Shown here in pieces: positions 30,176-47,460 of a stretch of 64,000 nt of DNA. The notes under the pieces are model-generated. The model made no database searches and was not told where the DNA came from. It was given only the letters and a program-made list of their open reading frames with translations. The stretch's first letter is position 1; each line of letters begins with the position of its first letter. Origin of the DNA: Mesorhizobium metallidurans STM 2683 (GTDB taxonomy: Bacteria > Pseudomonadota > Alphaproteobacteria > Rhizobiales > Rhizobiaceae). The DNA lies in assembly GCF_000350085.1 (NCBI RefSeq), contig NZ_CAUM01000134.1, forward strand, positions 124,001 to 188,000, given 5' to 3'. The position numbers and the translations under genes were made by a program.

Positions 30176-31264
30176 TTATTCCGCGGCCGCCGACATGTTC
30201 ACCTCGTGGAACTCGCCACGATAGGGCCGCGCCGTCGGCGGCAGCTCGCGCTTGAGGAAATAGTCCTCATATCTGAGCTGCTTCAGCAAGACCGGCCAGA
30301 CCTCGCGATAGGCATGCCAGATCGAAGGGTTCGGCAGGGGCAGATCGTGCTTGATCAGCTCATGCAGCCTGGGCAGCGCGTGATAGGGCACCATCGGGAA
30401 CATGTGATGCTCAACGTGATAGTTCATGTTCCAGTAGATGAACCGGCTGATTGGATTCATGTATACGGTGCGGGTGTTGAGTCGGTGGTCGACGACATTG
30501 TCGGCGAGACCAATGTGCTGCAGCAAACCGGTCATCACCATGTGCCAGCTGCCGTAGAGGCGCGGCAGACCGATCAGCACAAGCGGCAGGAACGACCATG
30601 TATAGAGGGCGAGTGCTATCGTCGCGACGTAGATGGCGACATGCCAGCGCGCGGCGGTGACGACCTTCGGCAGTTCCATCTCCGGAATGAAGCTCCTCTC
30701 GTCGGGCGAGATCTTGCCGAACGCGTTGCGCACCAATGTCGGCAGCGAATAGCGGAAATCGAGGATGCCGGTGAAGGCAAGTGCTGCGCGCAACAGGTCC
30801 GGCGGCCGCATCACCGCGATCTCGGCATCGCGCCCGACGATGATCGTGTCTGTGTGGTGGCGGGCGTGGCTCCAGCGCCATGTCACCGGGTTCCGCATCA
30901 GCATGAAGCTGGCGATCTGGTAGACCACATCGTTCATCCAGCGCGTACGGAAGGCCGTGCCATGGCCGCATTCGTGCCAGCGCGAGTCGCTGGAGGAACC
31001 GTAAAGCACGCCGTAGACGAAGAAGAACGGCACGCACCACCAGTTGCCCCAGAACCAGATGCCGCCGGCGGCCGAGCCCAGGATGGCGACAATCCAGATG
31101 ATCGTATCGCGGATCGCCGGACCGTCCGATCGCTGCATCAATTCCTTCATCGCCTTGCGGGAGACGTCGGTGTGATACCATTCGGCCGAGGCCAACCCGG
31201 TTTCGATTGCCCTGCGCGTGCTTTCGCCGACCAGGCTGTAGTCGCGCTTCATCCTGTCAGCCAT
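30176..31264 (-). CDS. Membrane di-iron fatty-acid desaturase/oxygenase (MocD-like)
   Basis: This 362-residue membrane enzyme has the three histidine boxes of the membrane di-iron family: HECGH, HARHH and HVEHH. Hydrophobic segments at about residues 50-90 and 190-230 would anchor it. The pairing with a Rieske ferredoxin matches MocD/MocE, the pair that demethylates methyl-scyllo-inosamine in rhizopine users. That substrate is not demonstrated here. The ATG at 31264 follows TTTGGAGGCCACA; an extension to 31312 lacks support. It is likely to be co-transcribed with the DUF4432 gene 84 bases upstream. Confidence 0.87.
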   Translation of the reverse strand: MADRMKRDYSLVGESTRRAIETGLASAEWYHTDVSRKAMKELMQRSDGPAIRDTIIWIVAILGSAAGGIWFWGNWWCVPFFFVYGVLYGSSSDSRWHECGHGTAFRTRWMNDVVYQIASFMLMRNPVTWRWSHARHHTDTIIVGRDAEIAVMRPPDLLRAALAFTGILDFRYSLPTLVRNAFGKISPDERSFIPEMELPKVVTAARWHVAIYVATIALALYTWSFLPLVLIGLPRLYGSWHMVMTGLLQHIGLADNVVDHRLNTRTVYMNPISRFIYWNMNYHVEHHMFPMVPYHALPRLHELIKHDLPLPNPSIWHAYREVWPVLLKQLRYEDYFLKRELPPTARPYRGEFHEVNMSAAAE

Positions 31265-31348
31265 TGTGGCCTCCAAATCCTGATGGCCGCGAGCCCTCCC
31301 CGCTCCGGCCAACCTCGAAACTGGTGTTTTGCATCGCCCTCGTCACCA

Positions 31349-32557: not shown

Positions 32558-33340
32558 TCATTTTGCCCGAGCCTCTCGCAGCAGGGCCGACATGTCGGCG
32601 CCGGTGATGATGCTTTCCACGGTCAAGAGGTCGGTGTCGGCGACGGTCTGCTCGGCGACGATCTCGCCGCGCCGCATCACGATGATGCGGTCGGCGACCT
32701 GGAAGACATGGTGAATATTGTGGGTGATCAGCAGCACCGAATGGCCGGCATCGCGCACCTCCTTGACGAAGCGCAGCACGCCATGCGTTTCCTCGACGCC
32801 GAGATTGTTGGTCGGCTCGTCGAGGATGATCACCTTGGCGGCGAACTGCATTGCCCGCGAAATGGCGATCGACTGGCGCTCGCCGCCCGAAAGCGTGCTG
32901 ACCAGCGCATCGGCATCGAGTTTTTTCGAAATGCCGACGCGCTTCAGAAGCGCCGATGCGGCATCGCGCAGCTTGGCGAGGTCGAGCGGCGCGAACACGC
33001 CCAGCCATTTCAGATTGACCGGCTCGCGGCCGAGAAACAGATTGCGCGCGATGCTGAGATCCGGCGCCAGCGAAGTGTCCTGGTGGATGGTCTCGATGCC
33101 GAGGTCCATCGCGTCGCGCGTCGAACGGATCGACACCTTCTGTCCCCGCACATAGATCTCGCCTCTGTCGACGGGAAACACACCGGAGATCGCCTTGATC
33201 AGCGTGGATTTGCCGGCGCCATTGTCGCCGAGCAAGGCCACCACCTCGCCTTCGCCAAGCGTGAAGGACGCGTTCTTCAGCGCACGCACGCTGCCAAAGG
33301 ACTTTTGCAGATTTTGCAGCCTGAGCACTTCCTGCGCCAT
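32558..33340 (-). CDS. Sugar ABC transporter ATP-binding protein (single-domain, FrcA-like)
   Basis: This 260-residue ATPase has one ABC domain: Walker A GDNGAGKST, Q-loop TIHQDTSL, signature LSGGERQSIAISRA, Walker B VIILDEPTNNLG and H-loop ITHN. The ATG at 33340 follows AGAGGTTGAAG and is preferred to the TTG at 33346. It starts two bases after the stop of the permease gene, so the two are coupled. It belongs to the importer formed with 33343-34362 and 34409-35350, inside the long minus-strand array. Confidence 0.9.
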   Translation of the reverse strand: MAQEVLRLQNLQKSFGSVRALKNASFTLGEGEVVALLGDNGAGKSTLIKAISGVFPVDRGEIYVRGQKVSIRSTRDAMDLGIETIHQDTSLAPDLSIARNLFLGREPVNLKWLGVFAPLDLAKLRDAASALLKRVGISKKLDADALVSTLSGGERQSIAISRAMQFAAKVIILDEPTNNLGVEETHGVLRFVKEVRDAGHSVLLITHNIHHVFQVADRIIVMRRGEIVAEQTVADTDLLTVESIITGADMSALLREARAK

Positions 33341-33342
33341 CT

Positions 33343-34362
33343 TCAACCTCTTGCGGCGTTTTTCTGCAGCAAAGCGTGCAGGATGAGCATGGCGAGGATG
33401 ATGACGCCGACGAAGATGTTATAGGCAAGCCCGGGCACGCCGATCAGCACGATGCCGTTGCGGATGGCGCGCAGCATCAGCGCGCCGACGATGGTGCCCA
33501 GGATGGTGCCTCGCCCGCCGGTCAGCGCCGTGCCGCCGACCACCACCATGGCGATCACTTCGAGCTCGTAGCCGGTGCCGGCCACCGGCGAGGCAGCCGA
33601 GATGCGGAAGGCGCTGATCATGCCGGCCAGACCCGCCAGCACCGAGGTCAGGATGAACAGCCAGATCTTGACCGCATCGGCAGGCACGCCGCGCGCCACC
33701 GCCGCGTTGCGATTGGAGCCGATGGCGCTGATCCAGTTGCCGAGCTTGGCGTAGCGCAGGATGTAGATGGCCAGCAGCGACAGGCCGACGAACCACCACA
33801 GCGAGGTGTAGAAGCGGAACGAACCGATGTTGAAACTGCCGGCGAGCAGCGTCACGAAGAAGCCGGGCTGGTCCCAGGATTTCAGCGGAAACCCTTGAGT
33901 GATGTAGAGCGCGGCGCCTCGCACGACGAGCAGCATCGACAGCGTGACGAGGAAGGAAGAAATACCGATCTTGGTGACGATCAGCCCGTTGATGGCCCCT
34001 ATCGCCACGCACAGGATGAGCCCGGCGAGCAGCGCCACGCCGATGCTGGCCTCGCCATTCTGCACCAGCAGCATGACCACAACCGGCGCCAGGCCGAAAA
34101 CGGCGCCGACCGACAGATCGAATTCGCCCGCCGTGAGAAGCAGCGTCATCCCGAGCGCGATGATGCCGAGTTCCGGCAGGAACGCCATCATGTTGGAGAT
34201 GTTGAGCGGCGACAGGAAATTGGCGTCGGCGACGGCGAACACCGTCAGCAGCACGATGAGGATGATGAGCGAGGAGAATTGCGGCGAGCGGATCAGGCTC
34301 GACCCGCGCTTGGCTCCGGGCATTTCCTCTTCAGCGGCAATTGTCATGACTGCTTGAACCAT
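33343..34362 (-). CDS. Sugar ABC transporter permease (CUT2)
   Basis: This 339-residue membrane protein has about nine hydrophobic helices, the family loop LTAGEFDLSVGAVFG (GEFDLSVG in place of GGIDLSVG), and VVGGTALTGGRGT near the end. The replacement of Gly-Ile by Glu-Phe is seen in some CUT2 permeases. The ATG at 34362 or the one at 34347 may be used; neither has a strong ribosome site. A stem-loop separates it from the binding-protein gene. Confidence 0.9.
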   Translation of the reverse strand: MVQAVMTIAAEEEMPGAKRGSSLIRSPQFSSLIILIVLLTVFAVADANFLSPLNISNMMAFLPELGIIALGMTLLLTAGEFDLSVGAVFGLAPVVVMLLVQNGEASIGVALLAGLILCVAIGAINGLIVTKIGISSFLVTLSMLLVVRGAALYITQGFPLKSWDQPGFFVTLLAGSFNIGSFRFYTSLWWFVGLSLLAIYILRYAKLGNWISAIGSNRNAAVARGVPADAVKIWLFILTSVLAGLAGMISAFRISAASPVAGTGYELEVIAMVVVGGTALTGGRGTILGTIVGALMLRAIRNGIVLIGVPGLAYNIFVGVIILAMLILHALLQKNAARG

Positions 34363-34372
34363 ACTTCAGAGT

Positions 34373-34400
34373 GACACCCGCCGCCTGCGCGGCGGGCGTC
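34373..34400 (-). other. Stem-loop between binding-protein and permease genes
   Basis: On the minus strand GACGCCCGCCG (34390-34400) pairs with CGGCGGGTGTC (34373-34383), an 11-bp stem with one G-U pair and a short loop. It begins eight bases after the binding-protein stop and ends eleven bases before the permease start. It fits a processing or attenuation hairpin that favours binding-protein mRNA. Confidence 0.6.
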
Positions 34401-34408
34401 AGCTTCAA

Positions 34409-35350
34409 TCACTTGTTGTAGAGTTTCAGGATCGGTTCGACGCTTGTCGCGTCGTAGAGGCTGAACGTCTGTATGTCGTAACCGATCGGTTCACCCGATG
34501 CGGCGAGCCCGAGCAGCGCCACCGGCATGAAGCCTTGCGCCGACGGGAACTGCCAGGCGGCCGCGTTGACGAAGCCGGCCTTGACGGCTTCCGCGGTTTC
34601 CTTGGAGTTGCCCCAGCCGACCACGGGGATCTTGCCGGCAGGCACGCCGGCGCCGTCGAACACGCGCTTGACGCTGGCCGCCACGGAATCGCCTAGCGCA
34701 ATGATCGCCGGCGGATTGTTGGCCACTATATAGTCGGTCATCTTGGCGATGATGCCGGCCGGATCGGTGCCGCAATCGACGACGTCGTATTTGATGCCGA
34801 GCGGATCGAACACGCTGGCGATGCCTTCGGTCTCGAGCTGCTGATAGCTGGCTCCCGGCACTTCGACCGGCAGGAACACCTTGTCGCCCTGCTTCACCAT
34901 CTTGTGGTCGACCAGATATTTGGCCCAGATAACGCCGGCCTCCTTGAGGTCAGCGCCGACATAGGCCTGCCGCCCGGTCGCCGGATCGTCGGTGTTGAAG
35001 AACACGATCGGGATGCCGGCAGCCTTGGCCGCCTTGACTTCTTCCGTCCACAGGCCGGGCTGCGCCGAAGTGGTGGCGATGCCATCGGGCTTGGCCGCAA
35101 GAGCCGAATTGAAGGCCTCCTTCTGCGCCGCCATGTCGCCACCACTGAAGGAGATCTTGCAGGTCACCTTGAGCTGGTCGCAGGCCTTGGTCGCACCGGC
35201 ATTCCAGTCCAGCCAGAACGCATCCGACGGGCCGCCATGCGACAGCAGATAGAATGTCTTCTGGCCGTCCTGTGCGAATGCCGGCGAACCCAACCCTATG
35301 CCTGCAAACAAAGTCGCGGCAGCCGCCAGTTTCAATCCGACTTTCAACAT
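34409..35350 (-). CDS. Sugar ABC transporter substrate-binding protein (CUT2)
   Basis: This 313-residue secreted protein starts at ATG 35350 after AATGGAGGAAACGAA and has a signal peptide ending SPAFAQD. The mature part begins KTFYLLSHGGPSDAFWLDWN, followed by cleft segments ISFSGGDMAAQ, GIPIVFFNTDDP and AIIALGDSVAA. The fold is RbsB-like. Relatives bind polyols or pentoses. It follows the isomerase gene by 69 bases. Its import partners are 33343 and 32558. Confidence 0.9.
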   Translation of the reverse strand: MLKVGLKLAAAATLFAGIGLGSPAFAQDGQKTFYLLSHGGPSDAFWLDWNAGATKACDQLKVTCKISFSGGDMAAQKEAFNSALAAKPDGIATTSAQPGLWTEEVKAAKAAGIPIVFFNTDDPATGRQAYVGADLKEAGVIWAKYLVDHKMVKQGDKVFLPVEVPGASYQQLETEGIASVFDPLGIKYDVVDCGTDPAGIIAKMTDYIVANNPPAIIALGDSVAASVKRVFDGAGVPAGKIPVVGWGNSKETAEAVKAGFVNAAAWQFPSAQGFMPVALLGLAASGEPIGYDIQTFSLYDATSVEPILKLYNK

Positions 35351-35419
35351 TTCGTTTCCTCCATTGTTGTGTACTTCGGGCCAAAAGCGTCGCCGCAAAG
35401 CGGCGACGCAGAACTCCTG

Positions 35420-36334
35420 TCAAAGGCCGTTGGCGCGGAACTTGCCGTCGAGGAATTTCTTGGCGCGCGGCACGTCGTCTTCCGAAAGATGCTCGATGAT
35501 GACCGGGATGTTCGGGTGCTTCTCGGCGAGCCGCTGGAGATAGAGGTCGTAATTCAGCGAACCAAGACCGGGCGCCGGCAACTCAATCTCGCCGACGCCA
35601 CGGAAAGTATGGCTCTCCAGCGCGTCCTCGTCGCCAATGTCGGCATGCTTTTCCGACTTGTCGCCACCCGAACGCTTGACGTCCTTGGCGTGGGCGATCT
35701 TGATCTTGTCGGTCAGCGTGTCGAACACCTGGTTCAGGATCTGGTCCATCCTGTCGATGTTGTGTGTCTCGAAATAGTTGGTCGGGTCCATCAACAGACC
35801 GAGACCGGGATGGTCGACCTGTGCGAACATCTTCACCGTCTCCTCGACCGAGCCGACGACATTGTTGACATAGGTTTCGAGCAGGAACACCGCGCCGTGG
35901 TCATAGGCCGTCTGCGCAAGGTCGGCGATCACCTTGCGGCATTCCTCGAAGCCTTCCTCGGTCTTGTTCTTGGGGTGGTGCACCCAGTCGGATTCGGTGT
36001 TGTAGGTGCCGGTTTCCGAGATCACGTAAGGCGAGCCGAAATGACGGGCGTTGCGGATGATCTCCTTGAGATAGCCGACGCGCTTCTCGCGCTCTGCCTT
36101 GTCGGGGTGGATGATGTTGGTGTAGCCCGACACGCAGCACACCGGCAGATTGTGGTCGCGGAAGACGTCGCGAACTTGTCTCGCCTTGTCCTTGGTGATC
36201 TGCCCAGCGGACAGGTCAACGTCCTTGAAGTGTAAATCGAGCTGCACCGTGTTGAAATCGAGCGCGCGGATCTTTTCCGCGGTTTCCTTGAGGCCGTACG
36301 GGAAATAGCCCGTGAAGATACCTGCCTGCATCAT
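35420..36334 (-). CDS. Sugar phosphate isomerase/epimerase-like TIM-barrel protein
   Basis: This 304-residue xylose-isomerase-like barrel has the strands MQAGIFTGYFPYG, NTVQLDLHF, ISETGTYN, VFLLETYVNN (likely metal-binding Glu), GLGLLMDPTNYF (Asp), IKIAHAKDVK (His) and VIIEHLSEDD (Glu). This is the four-ligand pattern of the family that includes inosose dehydratase, MocC-like and tagatose-epimerase-like enzymes. The ATG at 36334 follows GGGAGG. It lies just downstream of the Gfo/Idh dehydrogenase, a usual pairing in inositol-type and sugar oxidation pathways. Confidence 0.88.
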   Translation of the reverse strand: MMQAGIFTGYFPYGLKETAEKIRALDFNTVQLDLHFKDVDLSAGQITKDKARQVRDVFRDHNLPVCCVSGYTNIIHPDKAEREKRVGYLKEIIRNARHFGSPYVISETGTYNTESDWVHHPKNKTEEGFEECRKVIADLAQTAYDHGAVFLLETYVNNVVGSVEETVKMFAQVDHPGLGLLMDPTNYFETHNIDRMDQILNQVFDTLTDKIKIAHAKDVKRSGGDKSEKHADIGDEDALESHTFRGVGEIELPAPGLGSLNYDLYLQRLAEKHPNIPVIIEHLSEDDVPRAKKFLDGKFRANGL

Positions 36335-36376: not shown

Positions 36377-37465
36377 TCAGGTGATCGAGATTTCGGAAAG
36401 CCTGACCGTGCGGCCCTTCTCTATCGAACGGTAGCCCGCTTCGATCAGCGCCATGGTCTTGACATTGTCGGCGACGGAGAGCGCCGGCGGCTCACCCGTC
36501 TTCACCGCGTGCTGGAGTTGTTCCATGACGCCGATAAAGGCATGCGGGAACCACATCGTGTCCCAGCTCGGCGTCACCCATTTCCCGTCCGTTGTCTCGG
36601 TCGAGGCATAGGTCAGCGTCGAAGCGGAGCCTGTCGGCCAGCCGATCGTGCCCTTGGCGACTCCCTTCGTGCCATCAACACGCCAGTTGATGTGCTGGTC
36701 GTCCTTGTAGCCGTCCCGGCGCGGACCCGACCAGACATCCTCCAGCGACACGGCAAGCACGCCTGACGGGAACCGCATCGTCGACACGGTGATGCCGTCG
36801 GAGTGGTCGAACTTCGTACGCGGATCCTTGCGGGTCAGCGTGGTGATTTCGTCCGGATCGCCAAACAGGAAGCGCAGCACGTCAAGATGGTGCACGCTCA
36901 TATTGGCCAGCGTCAGCCGGTCGTAGTCCTCGAGGAAGGTCTGCCAATGCGGGATCGCATGCATGTCGATCTGCGCGAAGACGATGTCACCCAGCGCACC
37001 GCTGTCCATGATCTGTTTCAGCACGCGCATCGACTGGTCGTAGCGCATGTTCTGGTTGACCGAGAGGATCTTGCCGGCCTTGGCCGCCTCGTCGCGCAGC
37101 TCGATCGCGTCCTTGAGCGACAGCGCCAGCGGCTTCTGCGCCAGGATCGCCTTGATGTGCTTCTGCTTCAGCGCATGGCGGATCAGCGCCGGTTGCTGGT
37201 CCGGCGGGAAGGCCAGGTCGATGATCTCGACATTTTTGTCCTCGATCAATTGCTCGGGCGTGTCATGGACGGTCGGGATGCCCCAGCGCTTCGCCACCTT
37301 TTCGGCGCTGGCCTTGGTGCGCGAGGCGATTGCCACCACCGGAAAGCCAGCCTCCTTGTAGGCAGCCAGATGACACTCAGCCATGATCATGCCGGCGCCG
37401 ACGCAGCCGATCCTGTACTCCTTCGTGCGGACCTTCACGTCCGGCTCGAAACCTTTGCTCACCAT
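36377..37465 (-). CDS. Gfo/Idh/MocA-family oxidoreductase
   Basis: This 362-residue NAD(P)-dependent dehydrogenase has the Rossmann loop IGCVGAGMIMAECHLAAY and the active-site lysine segment AILAQKPLAL (EKP is more usual; here QKP). The segment MSVHHLDVLRFLFGD carries a conserved C-terminal-domain His. The ATG at 37465 follows CGGGAGGAACAC. The frame continues to 37504 and overlaps the ATPase gene, but that part lacks a ribosome site. Family members oxidise inositols, inosamines or sugars. It pairs with the isomerase downstream. Confidence 0.9.
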   Translation of the reverse strand: MVSKGFEPDVKVRTKEYRIGCVGAGMIMAECHLAAYKEAGFPVVAIASRTKASAEKVAKRWGIPTVHDTPEQLIEDKNVEIIDLAFPPDQQPALIRHALKQKHIKAILAQKPLALSLKDAIELRDEAAKAGKILSVNQNMRYDQSMRVLKQIMDSGALGDIVFAQIDMHAIPHWQTFLEDYDRLTLANMSVHHLDVLRFLFGDPDEITTLTRKDPRTKFDHSDGITVSTMRFPSGVLAVSLEDVWSGPRRDGYKDDQHINWRVDGTKGVAKGTIGWPTGSASTLTYASTETTDGKWVTPSWDTMWFPHAFIGVMEQLQHAVKTGEPPALSVADNVKTMALIEAGYRSIEKGRTVRLSEISIT

Positions 37466-37500
37466 GTGTTCCTCCCGAAGCTCGTTCCTTGCGGCCGCCG

Positions 37501-38577
37501 TCATCGTGCCAGCGCTCCCCCGCCTTGGCCGAAATAATGCACTCTGGCCGGCTCGCAGGATATCGCCACCATCGCGTCCGGTCTGATGTCAGGCTGGCCA
37601 CGCAGCAGCGCCCTCAGGCGTGCCTGCCCGGCGGCGAGCGTCACCACGGTGTAGCCGCCAAGCGGCTCGACCTCGAACACCCGCGCCGGGCGGCCCGCAC
37701 CCGCAACCGCGCGTCCATCGTCCGACCAGGGTCGGACCTTGATGTCCTCGGGCCTCAGCCCGATCTCCACGGCATCGGCCGGAGCGGCCTTGTCGGCGAT
37801 TCGGATCGTGCCGTCCGCCGCCTCGACGCCACCCTCACCTCGCACCGAAGCCAAGATATTCATCATCGGCGAACCGAGCATGCGCGCCACGTAGGTACTG
37901 GCAGGCCGGTCATAGATCTCGGCCGGCGCGCCGATCTGCCTGATCCTGCCGTTCTCCAGTATGGCGATGCGATCGGCGACCGACATCGCTTCCTCCTGGT
38001 CATGCGTGACGTAGACCAGCGTCTTGCCGAGCTCGCGCTGGATGCGCTTCAGCTCGACGCGCGTCTCCTCGCGCAGCCTGGCGTCGAGCGCCGAAATCGG
38101 ATCATCCATCAGATAGGCAGCCGGGTCGCGCACCAGCGCACGCGCGATTGCCACGCGCTGTCGCTCGCCGCCCGAAAGCTGCGCCGGCGGCTTATGCAAT
38201 ATATGGCCGATATGCAGCTTTGCCGCGACATCGGCGACGCGCTTTTCGATCTCGGCCTCGGCGATCCTGCGTTCGACCAAGGGAAAGCGCACATTCTCCA
38301 GCGCGCTCATATGCGGGAACAGCGCCAGGTTCTGGAACACCATGGCGACGTTGCGCTCGGCCGGCGACACCGCATTGACCGGTCTGCCGCCGATCAGGAT
38401 CTCGCCCGTATCAGGAACCTCCAGCCCGAGTATCAGGCGCAGCAGCGTCGACTTGCCGGACAGCGGCGGTCCGAAGAAGCAGAAGAACTCATTGTCGTTG
38501 ACGGTGAACGAGGCATCGTCGACGGCGAGCGTGCTGCCATAGCGTTTCGTCACATTGCTGAAGACGATGTTGGCCAT
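37501..38577 (-). CDS. CUT1 ABC transporter ATP-binding protein A (Walker B Glu replaced by Asp)
   Basis: This 358-residue MalK/UgpC-type ATPase has Walker A GPPLSGKST (residues 36-44), Q82, a canonical signature [15 protein letters not shown] (134-148), Walker B YLMDDPISALDA and H192, then a TOBE-type C-terminal domain. In Walker B the catalytic Glu is replaced by Asp (D159). It is followed on the operon by the Gfo/Idh gene and preceded by a second ATPase gene with the opposite defect. Together they appear to be a heterodimer with one degenerate site. Confidence 0.9.
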   Translation of the reverse strand: MANIVFSNVTKRYGSTLAVDDASFTVNDNEFFCFFGPPLSGKSTLLRLILGLEVPDTGEILIGGRPVNAVSPAERNVAMVFQNLALFPHMSALENVRFPLVERRIAEAEIEKRVADVAAKLHIGHILHKPPAQLSGGERQRVAIARALVRDPAAYLMDDPISALDARLREETRVELKRIQRELGKTLVYVTHDQEEAMSVADRIAILENGRIRQIGAPAEIYDRPASTYVARMLGSPMMNILASVRGEGGVEAADGTIRIADKAAPADAVEIGLRPEDIKVRPWSDDGRAVAGAGRPARVFEVEPLGGYTVVTLAAGQARLRALLRGQPDIRPDAMVAISCEPARVHYFGQGGGALAR

Positions 38578-38580
38578 GTC

Positions 38581-39672
38581 TCAACCCGTTCTCAAGGCAA
38601 GGCCGGTGGCAGCGTCGAACACCCGCACGGACGCCTCGGCCGGCGCGACGATTGCTGTCTGTCCGATCGCCAGCCCGACATCATTGTCGAACACCGCCTT
38701 CACCGCGGTCTCGCCCTGGCCGAGATGGACGATGGTGCGCGCGCCGATGCGCTCGACGAAAGTCACTGGCAAGGAAAGACCCTGGCCGCGTTTGACCAGC
38801 GCCGCCTGTTCCGGACGGAAGCCGTAAAGCACATCGCCCTGCGCGCCCCGCACGGCAGCAGCGATTTCGACCGGCAGCGGCGGTGTGGCGCCAAGCGGGC
38901 CAAGGTCGACAACCAGGCCACGATCGCTTTCCGCTGGCTTGCCCTTGAGCAGGTTCATGCCCGGCGACCCGATGAAGCGCGCGACGAAGACATTGGCCGG
39001 ATTGTTGTAGACCTCGAGCGGCGTGCCGACCTGCTGCAGCACACCATGGTCCATCACCGCGATGCGGTCGGCCATGGTCATGGCTTCAAGCTGGTCGTGG
39101 GTGACATAGACCATGGTCTGCTTGAACTGGCGCTGCAACTGCTTCAATTCGGTCCGCATGACGGCCCGGAAGGCCGCGTCGACATTCGATAGCGGCTCGT
39201 CCAGCAGGAAGATCGCCGGCTCCATGATCGCCGAACGGCCGATCGCCACGCGCTGCAAGATGTTGACCGACAGCCGGTCGGCCTTGCGGTCGAGCAATGG
39301 CGTCAGTTGCAGCATTTCGGCAATGGCGCCGACGCGGCGGTCGATCTCGGCTTTCGCGGCGCCTCGCATCCTCGGGCCATAGGCGAGGTTCTGGCGCACC
39401 GTCATATGGGTGAAGATCGCATAGTTCTGGAAGACGAAGCCGACGCCGCGCCGCCCCATCGGCACGCCTTCCATGTCGCGCTGGCCAAACAGGATCTTGC
39501 CACTGGTCGGCTCTTCCATGCCGGCGATCATGTTCATCGTCGTCGACTTGCCGCAGCCAGACGGCCCCAGCAGCGCCATGAACTCGCCATCGGCGATGGC
39601 CAGATCCATCGTCTTCAGCGCGGTGAAGTCGCCGAATTTCTTGACCAGGTTCTGCAGATGGATGGCGCTCAT
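38581..39672 (-). CDS. CUT1 ABC transporter ATP-binding protein B (degenerate signature)
   Basis: This 363-residue MalK/UgpC-type ATPase has a canonical Walker A GPSGCGKST (36-44), Walker B FLLDEPLSNVDA with the catalytic Glu E159, and H192. The ABC signature, normally LSGGQ, is LSVNILQRVAIGRSA (134-148); the two glycines are gone. A TOBE region follows. It lies three bases upstream of ATPase A and overlaps the permease gene by four bases. Two-ATPase CUT1 importers are known in rhizobia, for example GlpS/GlpT for glycerol. Confidence 0.9.
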   Translation of the reverse strand: MSAIHLQNLVKKFGDFTALKTMDLAIADGEFMALLGPSGCGKSTTMNMIAGMEEPTSGKILFGQRDMEGVPMGRRGVGFVFQNYAIFTHMTVRQNLAYGPRMRGAAKAEIDRRVGAIAEMLQLTPLLDRKADRLSVNILQRVAIGRSAIMEPAIFLLDEPLSNVDAAFRAVMRTELKQLQRQFKQTMVYVTHDQLEAMTMADRIAVMDHGVLQQVGTPLEVYNNPANVFVARFIGSPGMNLLKGKPAESDRGLVVDLGPLGATPPLPVEIAAAVRGAQGDVLYGFRPEQAALVKRGQGLSLPVTFVERIGARTIVHLGQGETAVKAVFDNDVGLAIGQTAIVAPAEASVRVFDAATGLALRTG

Positions 39673-40628
39673 GCCAGCACCTCCCGTGCCCGGGCCATGC
39701 GCTTCATCGCAAAGACAGCGGCAATGGACAGCACGATCAATATGGCCAGCGCGATCGCCGCGACATAGCCCCAGATCAGGTCCTGCGTGGTAAGCTTATA
39801 GATGTAGACGGAGATCGTCTCGGTGGCGACGCCGGGGCCACCGCCGGTCATGATGTAGAGCGTGTCGAAGATCTTGAAATTCTCGATCACCCTTATCGCC
39901 AGCGCGATGATGATGATCGTCTTCATCTTCGGCAGCACGATGGTGACGAAGCGCTGCCAGGGATTGGCGCCGAGCAGCGTCGCTGCCTTGATCTGGTCCT
40001 CGGGCACGCCGACCAGGCCGGCAAGCAGGATGAGGAACATCAATGGCGTCCATTGCCAGATGTCGGCGACCATCACCGCGATCAGCGCCAGCGTCGGGTC
40101 GGACAGCCAGGCGATGGTGACCGGCATGCCCGATATCGCCGACAAAAGGTCGTTCACCGGACCGCCCGACTGGAACAGCATGAAGAACATGTAGCCGGCC
40201 ACAGCCGGCACGACCATCATCGGCATAAGCAGGATCGAGTAGAAGATGCGCTTTCCCGGAAACTCGTCGGCAAACAGCGTCGCCAGCGCCAGCCCGAGCA
40301 GGAACTCGACGGGCACGCAGACAATCATGACGATGGCCGTGCGCTTCAGCGCGCTCCAGAAGCGCGCATCGACGGCAAGGTCGGTGTAATTGGCGAAATT
40401 GTTCCACATCGACCAGGCATTCCACCAGCCGGTGCCCGAAAGCGGCGACCAGTCGGTCAGGCTGATGTAGAGCTGCATTAGCAGCGGGAAGACGGCGATG
40501 AACAGCACCAGTATCTGCGCCGGCAGCGTCAGCCGGAAGCCGAGCTTTGCGCCTTCGTCCCGCAAGGCCGGCTTTGCCTGGACGGTCTTCATCACGTCCT
40601 CCGAAATCGTCGCGGTCACCGCGCTCAT
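39669..40628 (-). CDS. CUT1 ABC transporter permease (MalF/UgpA-like)
   Basis: This 319-residue inner-membrane protein has about six helices after a cytoplasmic N-terminus of about 35 residues. It has the EAA-type coupling loop [20 protein letters not shown] that contacts the ATPases. The start at 40628 overlaps the stop of the other permease gene by four bases (ATGA). The long frame that continues to 41072 is an antisense-like shadow of that gene. It forms a heterodimeric channel with 40625-41485. Confidence 0.9.
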
Positions 40629-41485
40629 TGCTTGAGCGCCCCGAAAGTCAGACCGCGCACCAGATGGCGCTGGATGGCGATGCCCATGATGACCGGCGGC
40701 ACCGCGGCGATGAGGCCCAGTGCTGCCTTGGCGCCATAGAGCTGCCCGGTCATGGAGGAGGACAGCGAGGCCATGTAGACCGGGATCGTCACCCATTCGC
40801 GCGTCGTCAGCAGCAGCGCGATCAGATAGTCCGACCAGTTGAGGATGAAGACGAAAAGTGCCGCACTTGCCAGCGGTGCACGCATCATCGGCAGCGTGAT
40901 GCGGGTGAAGACGCGCCATCGCGAACAGCCTTCGACCAGTGCCGCCTCCTCGATCTCGCGCGGCATGTCGTCGAAGAAGGTCTTCATCAGCCAGAAGGCG
41001 AAGGGCAGCGTGACGATGCCGTAGATCAGCGACAGCCCCCACCAGCTGTCGGTGAAATTGAGGAAGGCCCACATGATCATGACCGGGATCATCACCGCCA
41101 TCGGCGGAAACAGGCGAAGCTGGATCAGCGCCAGCGGCAGGTTCTGGCCCGAGCCGAAGCGCGACAGCCCATAGGCGGCTGCCGTGCCGGCCGACATGGC
41201 GATCGCCGTTCCGAACACCGCCGACAACAGCGACGAGACGATCGGCTTCATCGCGGTGCGGTCGAGCGCGACAATGAGGTTGTTGGTCGATTCACCGAAG
41301 ACGAAGCGGAAATTGCTGAGCGTCGGGTTCTTCGGCCACCAGGTCAGCTCGGCGCCGGTCGCCGACCATTCCGCGATCGGCTTGAACGCCATCGACACCA
41401 TCCACAGGATCGGCACCAGCGTCACCGCCATGGCCGCGAAGATCGCGGCATAACGGAATATCTCGAAGGGAATTGAACGCTTCAT
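40625..41485 (-). CDS. CUT1 ABC transporter permease (MalG/UgpE-like)
   Basis: This 286-residue inner-membrane protein has about six hydrophobic segments and the coupling loop [21 protein letters not shown]. The ATG at 41485 precedes [15 protein letters not shown], a normal start for this group; the frame to 41545 goes through a stem-loop and is not used. It lies between the binding-protein gene and the other permease gene. Confidence 0.9.
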
Positions 41486-41513
41486 CTTGCAGCTTTGCTG
41501 GTACCATCGTTGC

Positions 41514-41543
41514 GGAGGGGAAGAGCAATCACTCCTCCCCTCC
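41514..41543 (-). other. Stem-loop between binding-protein and permease genes
   Basis: On the minus strand GGAGGGGAGGAG (41532-41543) pairs with CTCTTCCCCTCC (41514-41525), a 12-bp stem with one G-U pair and a six-base loop. It lies between the binding-protein stop (41565) and the permease start (41485). There is no T-run. It may raise the yield of binding protein relative to the membrane parts. Confidence 0.6.
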
Positions 41544-41564
41544 ATTGCGATCCCGGGAGGAGGA

Positions 41565-43178
41565 TCAGCTGATCGGGTCGAGTACGGTCGGCCATGCCTC
41601 CTTGTTGGTCTTGATGGCTTCGAGGAGCTTGTCCTCGCCGGTGCGCCGGGCGATCTTCTTCCATTCCGCTTCGGTGTCGGCCATCGCCTGCTCGGCGGTC
41701 TTGGCCTTGGTCAGTGCCGCGACGAGGTTTTCGTCGAGCGCATTGTGGAAGGCGGTGGCGCCGGGATAGTTGATGGTCGGCACGGTGCGGGCGACCGTCT
41801 CGCGCACCACGTCCATGTGGTAGGCGTGGTAGGTCTGGCGGACCAGCGGGTCGGAAAAGTCCGACAGCCGGAACGGATCGAAATAGCCGCCCGGATTGGC
41901 CGTCATCCAGGCATAGATGCGGCTCGATCCCAGCCACTGCAGGAAGAGGTAGCAGGCCTCAGGATGCTTGGCCTGCGAGGACACCGAAGCCGACAGATTG
42001 AGCCACAGCACCGAGCGGCTGATCAGCTTGCCGTCGATCTCGCGGCCGGGCGGCAGCATCGAGCCGATCTTGCCGGTGACTTGGGAATCCTTATTGCCGG
42101 CATTGTCGAGGAATTTCGGCAGGTTGGAGAAGGCGCAGGTCATGGCCGCACCGCCCTTGGCGAAATTGCCATACTGCTCCGGCCAGCCCCACGAGATCGC
42201 ATCCGGCGAATGATGGACCAGCGACTCGACATATTCCGTCGTGGCCGCGATGCCCTGTTCCGAATTGATCAGCGGCTTGCCGCTATCATCGAACAGGAAC
42301 TGGTTGGGCGAGGCCATCGAGACGTAGCGCTGATACCAGTTGGTATAGCCCCAGCCCTGGTTGCGCAGATCGGTCGAGCCGAACAGGCCCTTGTCCGGAC
42401 GCTGGAAGAAGGCCGCGATGTCGCCATGCTGCTTCCAGGTCTTCGGCGGCGCAAGCTCGTAGCCATATTTGTCCTTGAAGGCCTTCTTCTCGGCCTCGTC
42501 GCCGAACAAATCGGTGCGGTAGACCCAGGTCTGGAAATCGCCGTCCAGCGACACGCCATAGGTCGAGCCGCGATACTGGTTGAGCAGCGAGACGCCCTTG
42601 GCGCCGTTGACATAGCCGCGCTCGGGATCGTCCCATTCCGGCTTGTGCTGGGCGACGAAGTCGTCGAGCTTGAGGATGCCGCCGGTTTCGGCAAGATCGC
42701 CGAGGCGGTTCCACTCGACGGCGTAGATGTCATAGGCCCCACCCTTGGTGGAGATGTCCTGCATCGTCTTGGTGAATTCCTGGCCGTTCGGCACGCCGAC
42801 GATCTCTAGCGGAATGCCGGTTTCCTTTTCCCACAGATCCTTGATCGATGGCGCGCCGGCTGGGAACGGCTGCGTCAGCTGGCCGATCGAGCCGTCGGAC
42901 AGGCCGAGCACGATCTTGGCCGGCGCCTTGCCGGCTCCCTTCATCGCCTTGACCGCCTCGATAGCGCGGCCTTCCGGCGTGTCCGGGCCATACTGATAAC
43001 GCTCCGAGCCGTCGAAGCCCGTCGGGCCACCGATCATGCCGGGCGCCAGCGCATCGGCGGCATAGGCGCGGCCTGGACGGATGAATTGCGGGGCAATACC
43101 TGCCGCGACCACGAACACGGCCGCCTTTCCACCGGACGCCAGCAAACGGCGCCGCGACATGCGGATCAAATTTGACAT
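41565..43178 (-). CDS. CUT1 ABC transporter substrate-binding protein with Tat-type leader
   Basis: This 537-residue solute-binding protein is longer than a typical 420-residue CUT1 binding protein. Its N-terminus, [20 protein letters not shown], has a twin-arginine motif, which points to export in a folded state. The mature part has the family patterns [31 protein letters not shown] and [18 protein letters not shown]. The ATG at 43178 follows CAGGGAGGACTTCC. Large binding proteins of this type bind glycerol-like polyols or oligosaccharides. It is the first gene of the array and is divergent from the LacI gene. Confidence 0.88.
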
Positions 43179-43226
43179 TGGAAGTCCTCCCTCAGGGCCC
43201 TGTTCCTCCACGGCCCTTATGATGGA

Positions 43227-43255
43227 TATTGACGGCAGGATAGGAAGCCTGTCAA
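43227..43255 (-). promoter_or_regulatory. Sigma-70-type promoter of the 43178 array
   Basis: On the minus strand TTGACA (43250-43255) is followed after exactly 17 bases by TCAATA (43227-43232), 49 bases upstream of the binding-protein start. The -35 is perfect and the -10 matches at three to four positions. It lies in the 355-base gene-free region 43179-43533 shared with the LacI gene. I could not pick out a clear LacI operator there. Confidence 0.55.
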
Positions 43256-43533
43256 CATCATAAATAATCAAAACACGTCACAACATCGCAAATGAGGGAG
43301 AAGATGCAGTCCACCAAGGTTGTCGCATCGCGCCCATTGCTTGAATTTGAGGGAATTCAGCACCGATCTCGCCCTTTCCCGCGCTGCCCGGCTATTTGGT
43401 TTAGCCCGGCGGCTTGCGCATCGGCCAAGGCCGGTTACATCATTTCCCATCAGAATCGCTGCCGGCGACGAGCCGTTCTCCGGGTTCGATCGAAATTTGC
43501 GCGATTTTGATGCTGGCAATGAGGTAGTCGACT

Positions 43534-44565
43534 GTGCGGTCCACCCTGACAGACATAGCCCGCGAAGCTGGCGTTTCCGCCGCCACGGTCGACCGTGTGC
43601 TGAACAACCGCCCCGGCGTCCGGGCGCGCACACGCGAAATCGTGCTCGAAATGGCGCAGCGGCTTGGCTACATCGCCGAGAATTCGAACAGCCCGACCCA
43701 GCGCCCCACCTTGCCCGGCGCTGTTATCCGGCTCGACTTCGCCCTGCCCGCCGGCACCAACTCCTTCATCAAGATGCTGCACCGGCATATCGAGGCGCAG
43801 GCGCAGGCGCGACCCGATCTCGATGTTCGCGTCGCCACGATCGAAGGCTTCAATCCGGACCGGCTAGCCCGGCTGCTGCACGATCTGCATGGCCAGACGC
43901 AAGGTGTCGGCGTCATCGCGCTCGACCATCCGACAGTCCGCGAGGCAATCCGCTCGCTATCGGCCAGCGGGGTCAAGGTCGTCACCATCGCCTCCGACAT
44001 CCTGCATGTGCCGAGGGTCGCCTATATCGGCATCGACAATCGCGCCGCCGGCCGGCTCGCCGGCTACCTGCTCAACCGCTTCATGGGCGCCGGACGGCCG
44101 GGCAAGGTCGCGCTGTTCGCCGGCTCGCTGTCCTATCGCGGCCATGAGGAGCGCGAGATGGGCTTCCGCCATATCCTGACGGAGGAATCACCCAATCTGG
44201 AGATCGTCGAGATGCGCGAAATGCTCGACGACCGGGAGAAGGCCTATTCCGAGGCCTCCGCCTTGCTGGACCGGCATCCGGATCTGGCCGCGATCTACAA
44301 TGTGGGCGCCGGCAACACCGGCATCGCCAGGGCGCTCAAGGAGCGCGGCCGCGCGCTGTCGACGGTCTTCCTCGGCCATGAGGTGACGGAAGGTACCAAG
44401 GACCTTCTGCTCGACGGCACGCTCGATGCGGTCATCGACCAGAACCCGCGCGTCGAGGCGCGCGAGGCGCTCAACATCCTGAGCCATGCGGTCAGGGGCT
44501 TGCCCTACGAATTGCACCAGCCGCGGCTGCAGGTGATCTTCAGGGAAAGCATTCCGGAGATCTGA
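43534..44565 (+). CDS. LacI-family transcriptional regulator
   Basis: This 343-residue repressor has the N-terminal helix-turn-helix and hinge TLTDIAREAGVSAATVDRVL and NNRPGVRARTREIV. The periplasmic-binding-like ligand domain follows, with GVIALDHPTVREAI, KVVTIASDI, YIGIDNRAAGRLAG and AIYNVGAGNTGIA. It starts at GTG 43534 after GAGGTAGTCGACT. It is divergent from the 43178 array, so that array is its probable target. The domain is closest to the group of LacI proteins that sense polyols or inositol-type sugars, but this is only an impression. Confidence 0.9.
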   Translation: MRSTLTDIAREAGVSAATVDRVLNNRPGVRARTREIVLEMAQRLGYIAENSNSPTQRPTLPGAVIRLDFALPAGTNSFIKMLHRHIEAQAQARPDLDVRVATIEGFNPDRLARLLHDLHGQTQGVGVIALDHPTVREAIRSLSASGVKVVTIASDILHVPRVAYIGIDNRAAGRLAGYLLNRFMGAGRPGKVALFAGSLSYRGHEEREMGFRHILTEESPNLEIVEMREMLDDREKAYSEASALLDRHPDLAAIYNVGAGNTGIARALKERGRALSTVFLGHEVTEGTKDLLLDGTLDAVIDQNPRVEAREALNILSHAVRGLPYELHQPRLQVIFRESIPEI

Positions 44566-44627: not shown

Positions 44628-45647
44628 CTATTGAACGGCAGCGACTTCCGTATAGGCGGCATCGACAAAGCTCTTATCGACCCATTTGCCATAGTCGATT
44701 GAGCCCTTCAAAAGCCCCGCGCCGGCCATGAACTTTTCTTCGTCCTTGAGCGCGGCGATCGCGTCGTCGGTGAGTTTGGGATCCTGGTAGAACAGGCCTT
44801 GGCTGTAGGTCTTGCGGACGGATTTCTCCGAAGACTTGGTCGCCTCGACAAAGGTCTTAATCGTCTCGTCGGGATGGGCGTCGGCCCAGCGCGCAATCTC
44901 GATATCGACCTTCAGCAGCCGCCTGACTAGGTCAGGATATTTCGTCGCGAAGGCGCCATTGACCGAGATGACATTCGGCACGTTCCATTCCGGATGCGAG
45001 CCGGTGTCATAGAGCACACGGGCCTCGCCGGTATCGACAAGCTTGGCCGCCGTCGAGTCGGTCTCGACGATGGCGGCGATATCGCCGCGCAGCAGCGCCG
45101 GGCCCGACGCCTCGAAGGGCAGATTCAGCCCTTCGACATCGGCCGTCGTCAGGCCGACGCTGTTCAGCGCCTTGCTGAAATTCGAATGCCGCACCGTGCC
45201 GGTGAGATAGGCGACCTTTTTGCCCCTCAGATCCTGCAGCGTCTTCAGCGGCGAGTCGGCCTTGACGACGATGTAGGAGCCGCCAGACTTCACATAGCTC
45301 GACAGGCCGATCAGCTTGACGTCGGCGCCGGAAGCAGCGACGCGCAGGGCCGGATTGTTGCCGGTGTAGGTGAACTCGATCGCCCCGGTCGCCAGCGCGG
45401 TGGTCGCCTCGGAGCCGCCGTTGAAGGTCACCAGGTCGACCTTGATGCCGTCCTTGGCGAATTCCTTCTCCCACCAGCCATCCTGCTGGGCGAGGATGAA
45501 TTTGAGATGGCCAGGTGCTGTGCTGCCGATGCGGATGACGTCGGGCTTGTCCTGAGCAAAGGCCGGCACGCCGCCGAGCCCGACGACCACGGCGATGGCG
45601 CCTTGCAAGAGCAACCTGCGAATTGCATCGAACCGTATCTTTGGCAT
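44628..45647 (-). CDS. NitT/TauT-family ABC transporter substrate-binding protein
   Basis: This 339-residue secreted protein has a signal peptide ending VPAFAQD and the SsuA-like pattern IRIGSTAPGHLKFILAQQ, DLVTFNGGSEATTALATG, then YTGNNPALRVAASGADV and NLPFEASGPALLRGDI. SsuA and TauA proteins bind alkanesulfonates, taurine or related anions. The start at 45647 follows AAGGAAATTTCAG. In this operon the binding protein comes last, after ATPase and permease, the reverse of the usual order. The presence of AprBA-like genes upstream suggests a sulfur-containing ligand. Confidence 0.88.
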   Translation of the reverse strand: MPKIRFDAIRRLLLQGAIAVVVGLGGVPAFAQDKPDVIRIGSTAPGHLKFILAQQDGWWEKEFAKDGIKVDLVTFNGGSEATTALATGAIEFTYTGNNPALRVAASGADVKLIGLSSYVKSGGSYIVVKADSPLKTLQDLRGKKVAYLTGTVRHSNFSKALNSVGLTTADVEGLNLPFEASGPALLRGDIAAIVETDSTAAKLVDTGEARVLYDTGSHPEWNVPNVISVNGAFATKYPDLVRRLLKVDIEIARWADAHPDETIKTFVEATKSSEKSVRKTYSQGLFYQDPKLTDDAIAALKDEEKFMAGAGLLKGSIDYGKWVDKSFVDAAYTEVAAVQ

Positions 45648-45700
45648 CTGAAATTTCCTTCCTGATAGCACGATTGGCCTGATTGGGATGAATGGCCGGC

Positions 45701-46612
45701 TTAAATGAGTGAGCTCTCGGACTGGCCCTTCCAGGCGGTTGCCCAGCGCTCGAACCAGACGAGCAGATAGTTGACGACGAGGCCGATGACGGTGAGCGTC
45801 AGGATGCCGGCATACATGTCAGCCGTTTCCATCATCAGTTGTGAGTTCTGGATGAGGAAGCCGAGCCCGGACTTGGCGGCCAGCATCTCGGCGCCGATCA
45901 CCGCGAACAGCGAGGATTTCACCCCGAGCCGCGCACCTGCGACGATCGAGGGAATGCTGGCCGGCAGGATGATTTTGCGGAACAGGTCGAAGTCGGACGT
46001 GCCCATCGAACGTGCCGCCTTGATCAGCAGCGGATCGACCGACTTGACGCCGCTGATCGTGTTGACCAATAGGAAGAACACCGAGGAATAGAAGGTGATC
46101 GCCACCTTCGATTCCTCGCCGATGCCGAGCAGCAGGATGAACACCGGGAGCAGCGCGAATTGCGAGGTGTTGCGTAGCGTCTGCACCAGGAGGTCGGAGA
46201 CCTTTTCGAACAGCGAATAGCGCCCCATCAACAGGCCGAGCGGGATGGCCACCACCACGCCGAGCGCGAAACCGATCGCCGCGCGTTGCAGGCTGATGCC
46301 GACATGCTCGACCAGCACGCCCGAGGCGAGCAGCTCCCACCAGGCGACGAGCACTTCGCTCAGTGGCGGAAAGAAGATGCGGTTCAGCCAACCGAGCCGC
46401 GGCGCGATCTCCCAGGTGAGGAAGAACAGGCCGAGCAAAGGCAGGCCGTAGACGAAGGTGCCGAAGCTGGCTCCTCGCCTGCTGGGCTTTGCGCGCGGGG
46501 CGGCGGCTCGGGCCTTGATTGCCGGGACCCTGGCGGCAGCCACCGCTTCACCGGCTCCGGCAAACGGATGAAAGCCGCCGGCCGGGCCAAACTTTTCGGT
46601 CAGATAGGCCAT
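45701..46612 (-). CDS. NitT/TauT-family ABC transporter permease (SsuC-like)
   Basis: This 303-residue protein has an unusually long, Ala/Arg-rich cytoplasmic N-terminus of about 55 residues, then about six helices. The coupling loop is KAARSMGTSDFDLFRKIILP. The sequence GLPLLGLFFLTWEIAPRLG starts the first helix. The ATG at 46612 (MAYLTEKFGPAGG) lies eleven bases after the ATPase stop. It forms the homodimeric channel of the importer. Confidence 0.9.
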   Translation of the reverse strand: MAYLTEKFGPAGGFHPFAGAGEAVAAARVPAIKARAAAPRAKPSRRGASFGTFVYGLPLLGLFFLTWEIAPRLGWLNRIFFPPLSEVLVAWWELLASGVLVEHVGISLQRAAIGFALGVVVAIPLGLLMGRYSLFEKVSDLLVQTLRNTSQFALLPVFILLLGIGEESKVAITFYSSVFFLLVNTISGVKSVDPLLIKAARSMGTSDFDLFRKIILPASIPSIVAGARLGVKSSLFAVIGAEMLAAKSGLGFLIQNSQLMMETADMYAGILTLTVIGLVVNYLLVWFERWATAWKGQSESSLI

Positions 46613-46623
46613 GCCAAAACTCC

Positions 46624-47460
46624 TCAGTGGCTGAACGCCGGCGACAGCGTCCAGTCTTTCTGTGCCTTGTTGACTTCGTCGCGCAGCACGTCCCAGACGC
46701 GGGCGCGGTGATTGTTGAAGGCATCGCTGGCGCGGATGTCGCCTTCGCGCGGCCGCGGCAGGTCGATATCGATGATCTCCTTCACCGTGCCCGGACGCGC
46801 GGTCATCACCACCACCCGGTCGGCCAGGAAGATCGCCTCGTCGATCGAATGGGTGACGAAGATCACCGTCGTCTTGATTTCGCCCCAGATCCTGAGCAGT
46901 TCGCCCTGAAGGAGCTCGCGCGTCTGCTGGTCGAGCGCGGCGAACGGCTCGTCCATCAACAGCACTTCCGGATTGCTGGCCAGCGCCCGGGCGATCGCCA
47001 CGCGCTGCTGCATGCCGCCGGAGAGCTGGTTGGGAAAGCGGTCCTCGAAACCGGCAAGGCCGAACAGCGACAGAAGATGGCGAGCCGTGGCGGTGCGCTC
47101 CGATTTGGCGACGCCGCGCACTTCCTGCGCATATTCGATATTGGCCAGCGCCGTGCGCCAGGGAAACAGCGCATATTGCTGGAAGACATAGCCGGTCTTG
47201 GGATCGGGCTTGCTGATCCGCCTGCCGTCAAGCTGGACGCCGCCGCTGGTCGCCTGCGTCAGCCCGCCAATGATGTCGAGCAGCACCGACTTGCCCGATC
47301 CGCTCGGCCCGACCAGCGTGATGAACTCGCCCTTGCGGATGGCGAGGTAGACGCCGTCAAGCACGGTGACGCGGTCGGTCGCCTCGCCATCGACGGTGAC
47401 GAACTGTCCCGGCTTGAGCTGGAAGGTCTTCTTGATGTCGTTGACGACAATGCGGTCCAT
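46624..47460 (-). CDS. NitT/TauT-family ABC transporter ATP-binding protein (SsuB-like)
   Basis: This 278-residue ATPase has Walker [14 protein letters not shown]-loop [13 protein letters not shown], signature [15 protein letters not shown], Walker [13 protein letters not shown] and H-loop [13 protein letters not shown]. All are canonical for SsuB/TauB/NrtD. The ATG at 47460 follows GGAGACTGGC. It lies 17 bases downstream of the ferredoxin gene in a tightly packed operon. Confidence 0.92.

Follow-up and report, generated by a model that had tools for sequence, protein, structure and literature searches.

Importers of the MalFGK2 and UgpABCE type use one kind of ATPase and have two equal, canonical ATP sites; MalK itself is a homodimer. 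Work on asymmetric ATP sites has centred mostly on exporters and CFTR. Here, we describe an ATP-binding cassette (ABC) importer with two different ATPases, A and B, encoded in a 64,000-nucleotide stretch of the Mesorhizobium metallidurans STM 2683 genome (contig NZ_CAUM01000134.1, positions 124,001 to 188,000; hereafter the window). It shares its permease, solute-binding protein (SBP), and ATPase families and its residue numbering with MalFGK2/UgpABCE. We consider it probable (about 0.77) that this is a CUT1-type importer with one consensus and one degenerate ATP site, working like TAP.

In the heterodimeric exporters TAP1/TAP2 and TM287/288, as in the window, the degenerate site combines the Walker motifs of one nucleotide-binding domain (NBD) with the signature of the other (PMC7756269, PMC12422388; papers are cited by PubMed Central number for the content of their available passages). 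Degenerate sites in exporters are reviewed in PMC7756269: Glu-to-Asp and signature changes are common in heterodimeric exporters, and in human exporters signature changes occur in all degenerate sites, with Glu-to-Asp the second commonest change. The degenerate site of TAP binds ATP without hydrolysing it (PMC12422388). BmrCD is a further heterodimeric exporter. TAP and TM287/288 are exporters with transmembrane domain and NBD in one chain, whereas the window encodes its BPD_transp_1 permeases and MalK-type NBDs as separate chains, together with an SBP. Among importers, RbsA and NupO (Bacillus subtilis) likewise have one degenerate ATP site (PMC11466899), but their two NBDs share one chain and the second Walker A lysine is lost, whereas the window ATPases are separate chains of 358 and 363 amino acids (aa). 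DppDF is a Type I importer that also has two different ATPases, but with functional motifs in both; in the structures, nucleotide occupies DppF only (PMC12136057). GlpSTPQUV of Rhizobium leguminosarum, like the window system, has two different MalK-like ATPases, an SBP, and two permeases (layout per PMC7912956), and glpVSTPQ of Ruegeria is the same kind of glycerol importer.

A preliminary description of the window, made from the sequence alone, had held one-site degeneracy to be an unusual description for a carbohydrate importer; this needs qualifying, as it was already noted in the fused-NBD proteins RbsA and NupO (PMC11466899). A literature search of titles, abstract beginnings, and passages, with subscription literature mostly outside it, turned up no description of such asymmetry in GlpS/GlpT or in other two-ATPase CUT1 importers. 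Degenerate sites are known in exporters and fused importer ATPases, and asymmetric two-ATPase CUT1 importers appear undescribed in the literature covered.

Composite ATP sites of ATPases A and B

Both ATPase genes lie on the minus strand, as do the motifs given below; the plus-strand frame encodes no ABC protein (open reading frame read-out). ATPase A (37501 to 38577; 358 aa) is a MalK/UgpC-type protein with a TOBE_2 domain. It keeps an intact LSGGE signature (38164 to 38178) and His192, and deviates in Walker A, GPPLSGKST (38446 to 38472), which has Leu for Gly39 of GPSGCGKST, and in Walker B, LMDDP, where Asp159 (GAT; 38101 to 38103) replaces the catalytic Glu. ATPase B (38581 to 39672; 363 aa), also of MalK/UgpC type, has Walker A (GPSGCGKST), Q-loop, Walker B (DEP, with catalytic Glu159 encoded by GAG at 39196 to 39198), and H-switch (His192) intact and a degenerate signature, LSVNI (residues 134 to 138; 39259 to 39273). 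Residue numbers of A and B coincide with those of Escherichia coli MalK (K42, Q82, D158, and E159; PMC7658222).

Direct read-out bears out the coordinates and the four motifs reported in the preliminary description (LSGGE and DDP in A, DEP and LSVNI in B), which had not stated the strand. Its list of defects was right for LSVNI and Asp159 and incomplete, having missed Gly39Leu. Each ATP site joins one subunit's Walker motifs to the other's signature, so Gly39Leu and Glu159Asp in A and Gly136Val, Gly137Asn, and Ile138 in B all fall in one composite site, that of the A Walker motifs and the B signature. The B-Walker/A-signature site is canonical, with 1 deviation (Q138E, i.e., LSGGE) at 24 compared positions in the window family. 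The claim that both defects share one site while the other stays canonical therefore follows from the sequence. Loss of the signature in one NBD and change of the catalytic Walker B residue in the other, within the same site, is the combination that marks the degenerate-site class.

Departures were sought at positions at least 97% conserved in 87 MalK-type control ATPases (residues 1 to 244). Those found were A39, A159, B136, B137, B164, and B46, the last a conservative Leu-to-Met change behind Walker A. B164 lies in the D-loop region SNVDAA (39172 to 39189), where the Leu164 of controls is Val in 91/98 B sequences. Signature residues contact the gamma-phosphate, and the D-loop acts in trans; with the D-loop counted in this way, 5/6 departures fall in the A-Walker/B-signature site.

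From these motifs we infer that A and B form a heterodimer in which one site has slow turnover or none. The heterodimer, sitting under the two permeases, would be obligate, since either homodimer would hold two poor sites. ATP would bind at the A-Walker/B-signature site, where Lys42, Gln82, Asp158, His192, and the aromatic residue 13 are kept, and would be hydrolysed there slowly or not at all, so that the site serves as a hinge. The B-Walker/A-signature site alone would hydrolyse ATP and drive each uptake cycle, as in TAP, but for import. By analogy with TAP and the reviewed degenerate sites, the A-Walker site should be the slow one and the B-Walker site the powering one.

Conservation in relatives and order of change

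A scan of one genome per species (84,980 species) gave 183 relatives of B, of which the best 80 (73 to 95% identity) were analysed; they include Mesorhizobium, Chelativorans, Kaistia, Rhizobium, Shinella, Rubellimicrobium, Cypionkella, and other genera. In all 80 of these loci, B reads LSVNI/LLDEP and a same-strand A reads LSGGE/LMDDP, so the one-site arrangement recurs throughout. Profile searches set the family apart (>500 bits versus at most 412 for other ATPases, among the matches listed). It is present in 11/121 genomes of the family rank and 6/385 drawn from the class, the window genome being counted in both. One Mesorhizobium locus (L060, 7278 to 8240) has an A reading frame cut short at its start, without Walker A, and a longer B match than usual; it is possibly a frameshifted or rearranged copy.

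These loci bear on the possibility that A and B are unpaired, each forming homodimers or finding partners among further ATPases of MalK type in the cell. CUT1 systems are known to exchange such ATPases with one another (PMC7658222), and the genome holds 46 matches to B at E values up to 1e-50. Pairing is nonetheless favoured by gene order, as A adjoins B in the 80 loci and in every further family locus read, with reading frames that overlap or abut, and by the motifs themselves, as B2 would have no intact signature and A2 no catalytic Glu, leaving two impaired sites in each homodimer. Unpaired ATPases are therefore unlikely.

Among 98 distinct B sequences, the signature is LSVNI in 90 and LSVNE in 8, and none has SGG; Val136, Asn137, Ser135, and Glu159 are each kept in 98/98. 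Among 96 distinct A sequences, residue 159 is Asp in 90 and Glu in 6 (two more Glu159 sequences, L130 and L142, fell among the controls by score cut-off). LSGGE, Gln82, Asp158, and His192 are kept in 96/96 and Lys42 in 95/96, the exception presumably being the incomplete L060. At the codon level, read in 96 loci that include some genes duplicated from two collections, B Ile138 is paired with A Asp159 in all. Codons vary synonymously at V136 (GTC 83, GTG 12, GTA 1), N137 (AAC 81, AAT 15), I138 (ATC 61, ATA 25, ATT 10), and A Asp159 (GAT 74, GAC 22). As the residues are fixed while their codons vary in this way, the state of the B signature and of A159 is conserved beyond chance. A residue 39 in the same loci is Leu (six codons) with one Ser. 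Nine loci stand outside the count of 96 (eight LSVNE/Glu159, one LSVNI/Asp159).

Of the 87 controls, 10 belonged to other tandem pairs or were misfiled A sequences; the remaining 77 are singles, with no same-strand ATPase neighbour in the fetched stretch. These MalK-type ATPases without a detected tandem partner have [LM]SGGQ and DEP in 77/77 and the window-type changes in 0/77. The preliminary description had allowed that both changes might occur at random in single-ATPase relatives, an explanation which the controls reject. They also speak against LSVNI as a working signature with unusual chemistry, with both sites hydrolysing ATP: both glycines that every control keeps are replaced, and a similar sequence, LNVEQ, stands at the degenerate site of the yeast exporter Pdr5 (PMC7756269). 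That explanation can draw on the invariant Ser135 and on the fact that Asp in place of Glu can still hydrolyse slowly (PMC7756269); we regard it as quite improbable.

On the order of change, the informative sequences are eight more distant members (L118 to L122, L128, L130, and L179; 48 to 57% identity to B), in which B has LSVNE and A has Glu159. When a tree is built with the trait columns excluded, the A sequences with Asp159 form a clade (8/14 rows, support 99) nested inside Glu159 members, and the B sequences with LSVNI form one (8/14 rows, support 100) inside LSVNE members, the two splits matching. As the LSVNI/Asp159 clades lie within earlier-branching LSVNE/Glu159 members, the tree shows a stepwise history in which the signature glycines were lost first and the changes of A Glu159 to Asp and B Glu138 to Ile came later, on one branch. 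The two defects of the preliminary description thus share a site, as it had said, and did not arise together, the signature loss being the older.

Other tandem ATPase pairs

At least four further tandem pairs of this ATPase type occur in the window genome (C80, C132, C182, and C42; C42, C132, C182, and "third family" are labels coined in this analysis). The C80 pair belongs to the genome's own glp operon (locus L214, away from the window), which has GlpR-, GlpD-, GlpS-, GlpT-, GlpV-, and GlpK-like genes, identified by our reading of protein starts. Its GlpT has the signature LTADQ with the other motifs intact, and its GlpS keeps LSGGQ and DEP and has lost Gly39 and His192. Across 46 Glp loci (45 distinct pairs, two loci carrying an identical gene pair), GlpT has lost the second signature glycine in 45/45 (Asp in 44, Ala in 1) and kept Glu159 and His192 in 45/45. 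GlpS has lost His192 in 45/45 (Thr in 44, Ser in 1) and Gly39 in 44/45 and kept LSGG, Glu159, Lys42, and Gln82 in 45/45. Whether GlpS/GlpT are asymmetric, a question left by the preliminary description, can thus be answered: damage falls in one composite site, the same asymmetry through other residues, in all 45 pairs. GlpT matches (E values up to 1e-85) occur in 85/398 genomes drawn from the phylum. That a Glp-type importer functions in vivo is supported by a glpVSTPQ gene of Ruegeria pomeroyi that was a growth-screen hit for glycerol (PMC10130141); the GlpS/GlpT motifs are known here from other genomes.

The window system itself is not GlpSTPQUV, an identity we considered and rejected. Its operon has GFO/IDH/MocA, TIM-barrel, and DUF4432 genes and lacks the combination of a GlpV-type SBP with glp genes (glpK, glpD, and glpR), and the genome's glp operon is at L214. 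Glp differs further in its defect, in His192 rather than Glu159, in its LTAD-type rather than LSVN signature, and in its operon and SBP (26%, 51 bits between the Glp and window SBPs).

The third family (L199; L209, Rhizobium; L210, Phaeobacter; L211, Alisedimentitalea; and L200 only in part) has B-type signatures LGASE, LGGSE, or MGGSQ, and A-type partners with Gln82 changed to Asp or Glu and His192 to Pro. The L209 pair lies by a glutamine synthetase gene and the L210 and L211 pairs by a betaine-type SBP gene; from these neighbours, the third-family substrate may not be a sugar.

The C132 pair (LSGGD/LSGGE) and the C182 pair (LAGGD/LSGGE) have DEP in both subunits, and orthologues in R. leguminosarum and Phyllobacterium likewise keep the catalytic motifs in both. 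The C42 type (L134; L207, Sinorhizobium; and L208, Gemmobacter) has a first ATPase with LSNGQ, LLDDP (Asp159), and VTQD (His192 to Gln) and a second with Gln82 changed to Glu (AFEG Q-loop) and D-loop GQLE. At L134 (5295 to 7543) and in the orthologues, its neighbours are genes for an FGGY-type kinase and aldolases and a gene resembling that of glycerol-3-phosphate dehydrogenase. Two general rules were rejected on these pairs: that having two ATPases necessarily entails a dead site (by C132 and C182) and that every degenerate pair obeys a one-site rule (by C42).

The two sites were compared at 24 positions conserved in 22 singles, a deviation being a position at which at most half of a group's rows keep the control residue. 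Deviations in the A-Walker/B-signature site versus the other numbered 8 and 1 in the window family, 13 and 0 in Glp, 10 and 1 in the third family, 6 and 6 in C42, 5 and 2 in C132, and 4 and 1 in C182. For the window, Glp, and third families pooled, Fisher's test gives p = 3e-9, which is a guide only, the families having been picked post hoc and the positions being non-independent. As the lopsided design recurs in relatives, the rhizobial glycerol importer included, the asymmetry looks like a built-in feature and not damage. Neutral decay, in which little ATPase power is needed, both subunits drift, and the shared site is coincidental, has the conservative, single-origin Glu-to-Asp change and the variable residue 39 of A (Leu, Ser, or Gly among members) on its side and is very unlikely, as V136/N137 stay invariant in B although their codons vary, B Glu159 and A LSGGE are kept in all B and A sequences of the alignment, and GlpS/GlpT and the third family are damaged in the same site.

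Several points weigh against a TAP-like importer with one powering site. LSVN keeps Ser135, and some catalysis might still be supported; the near-canonical C132 and C182 pairs indicate that two ATPases need no dead site; and the C42 type, one of four tandem families with clear motif losses, deviates equally in both composite sites. The controls were collected by similarity to B and not at random, and 21/77 lie within 800 bases of a stretch end, beyond which a partner would go unseen. The tree is a quick search with no bootstrap, and the changes to Asp159 and Ile138 each trace to one branch, so that their co-occurrence is a single event and not many.

In the wider tree, window B groups with third-family B (support 98), GlpT is on its own branch, and the A-type subunits (window A, GlpS, third-family A, and the first ATPase of C42) fall on one side of a branch with support of 84, which is not strong. 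By the approximately unbiased test, a single origin was not rejected for window B, third-family B, and GlpT (p = 0.51); nor was it when window A and third-family A were grouped with GlpS and C42 was left out (p = 0.35). We tentatively suggest, at somewhat less than even odds, that an old duplication of a MalK-like ATPase produced two lineages, a "Walker-crippled" A and a "signature-crippled" B, and that the Glp, window, and third families inherited or re-evolved a one-active-site engine, forming their own CUT1 class, an import counterpart of TAP.

Gene context and significance

On the minus strand, the gene order is SBP, two permeases, ATPase B, ATPase A, oxidoreductase, and TIM-barrel isomerase; a LacI-type regulator is transcribed divergently. 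The family-1 SBP (SBP_bac_1, 82.6 bits) lies at 41565 to 43271; by our own reading its start is likely the ATG at 43178, with a twin-arginine-like leader. The MalG/UgpE-type permease (40625 to 41545; 306 aa) is followed by the MalF/UgpA-type permease (39669 to 40628; 319 aa from the ATG at 40628), the stop of which overlaps the start of ATPase B (ATGA). The start of the GFO/IDH/MocA oxidoreductase (36377 to 37504) overlaps the stop of ATPase A, and the xylose-isomerase-like TIM-barrel gene follows (35420 to 36334; a sugar phosphate isomerase/epimerase in annotated relatives). The divergent LacI-family regulator is on the plus strand (43534 to 44565), and LacI-family genes stand at the equivalent place in two annotated relatives, L129 and L131. 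From the second permease through the oxidoreductase, each stop codon overlaps the next start codon or lies very close to it, so the genes probably form one translationally coupled operon. The neighbouring genes suggest as substrate a sugar or polyol on which the dehydrogenase and the isomerase act. The closest loci with this operon (among the best 80 of 183 relatives) are in Mesorhizobium.

By Pfam, ATPase A has ABC_tran, TOBE_2 (31.9; cut-off, 21), and OB_MalK (24.6, under the cut-off of 27), and ATPase B has ABC_tran, OB_MalK (23.5, under cut-off), and no TOBE. Among NCBIfam models, both score highest against UgpC, at 345 (A) and 374 (B), below the cut-off of 432; among solved structures, both match MalK-type sugar ATPases best, over nearly full length. 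The two permeases are of MalF and MalG type, as expected for CUT1, with BPD_transp_1 by Pfam; their best NCBIfam models (GlcT/MalF/UgpA and GlcU/MalG/UgpE) are all under their cut-offs, and for the MalF/UgpA-type permease shorter stretches (283 and 305 aa) were used in the family scans. With a family-1 SBP as well, the importer belongs with CUT1 by its parts, with the reservation that regulatory-domain models are near or under cut-offs.

A second set of transporter genes (32558 to 35398, minus strand) encodes an RbsB-like SBP, a BPD_transp_2 permease, and a single-domain ABC ATPase (262 aa; D-loop NNLG). It sits between the TIM-barrel gene and a same-strand DUF4432 gene, where L129 and L131 have an aldose-1-epimerase-family gene; from this placement, a single catabolic cluster of the window may be supplied by two sugar transporters. 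After the DUF4432 gene, in the same orientation, comes a fatty-acid desaturase gene (30176 to 31312, minus strand). Beyond the LacI regulator is a further importer (44628 to 47460, minus strand) with an NMT1-like SBP, a BPD_transp_1 permease, and an ABC ATPase.

The window system and its relatives present a MalFGK2-like importer family with asymmetry in stages: a near-canonical pair, signature lost, and signature and Glu lost. The one-site division may be ancestral to a class of two-ATPase CUT1 importers. These importers would offer a well-understood type of transporter in which to ask why a crippled site is kept, how much ATP is spent per uptake cycle, and in what order a site decays. GlpS/GlpT, which are widespread, offer an easy growth assay on glycerol.

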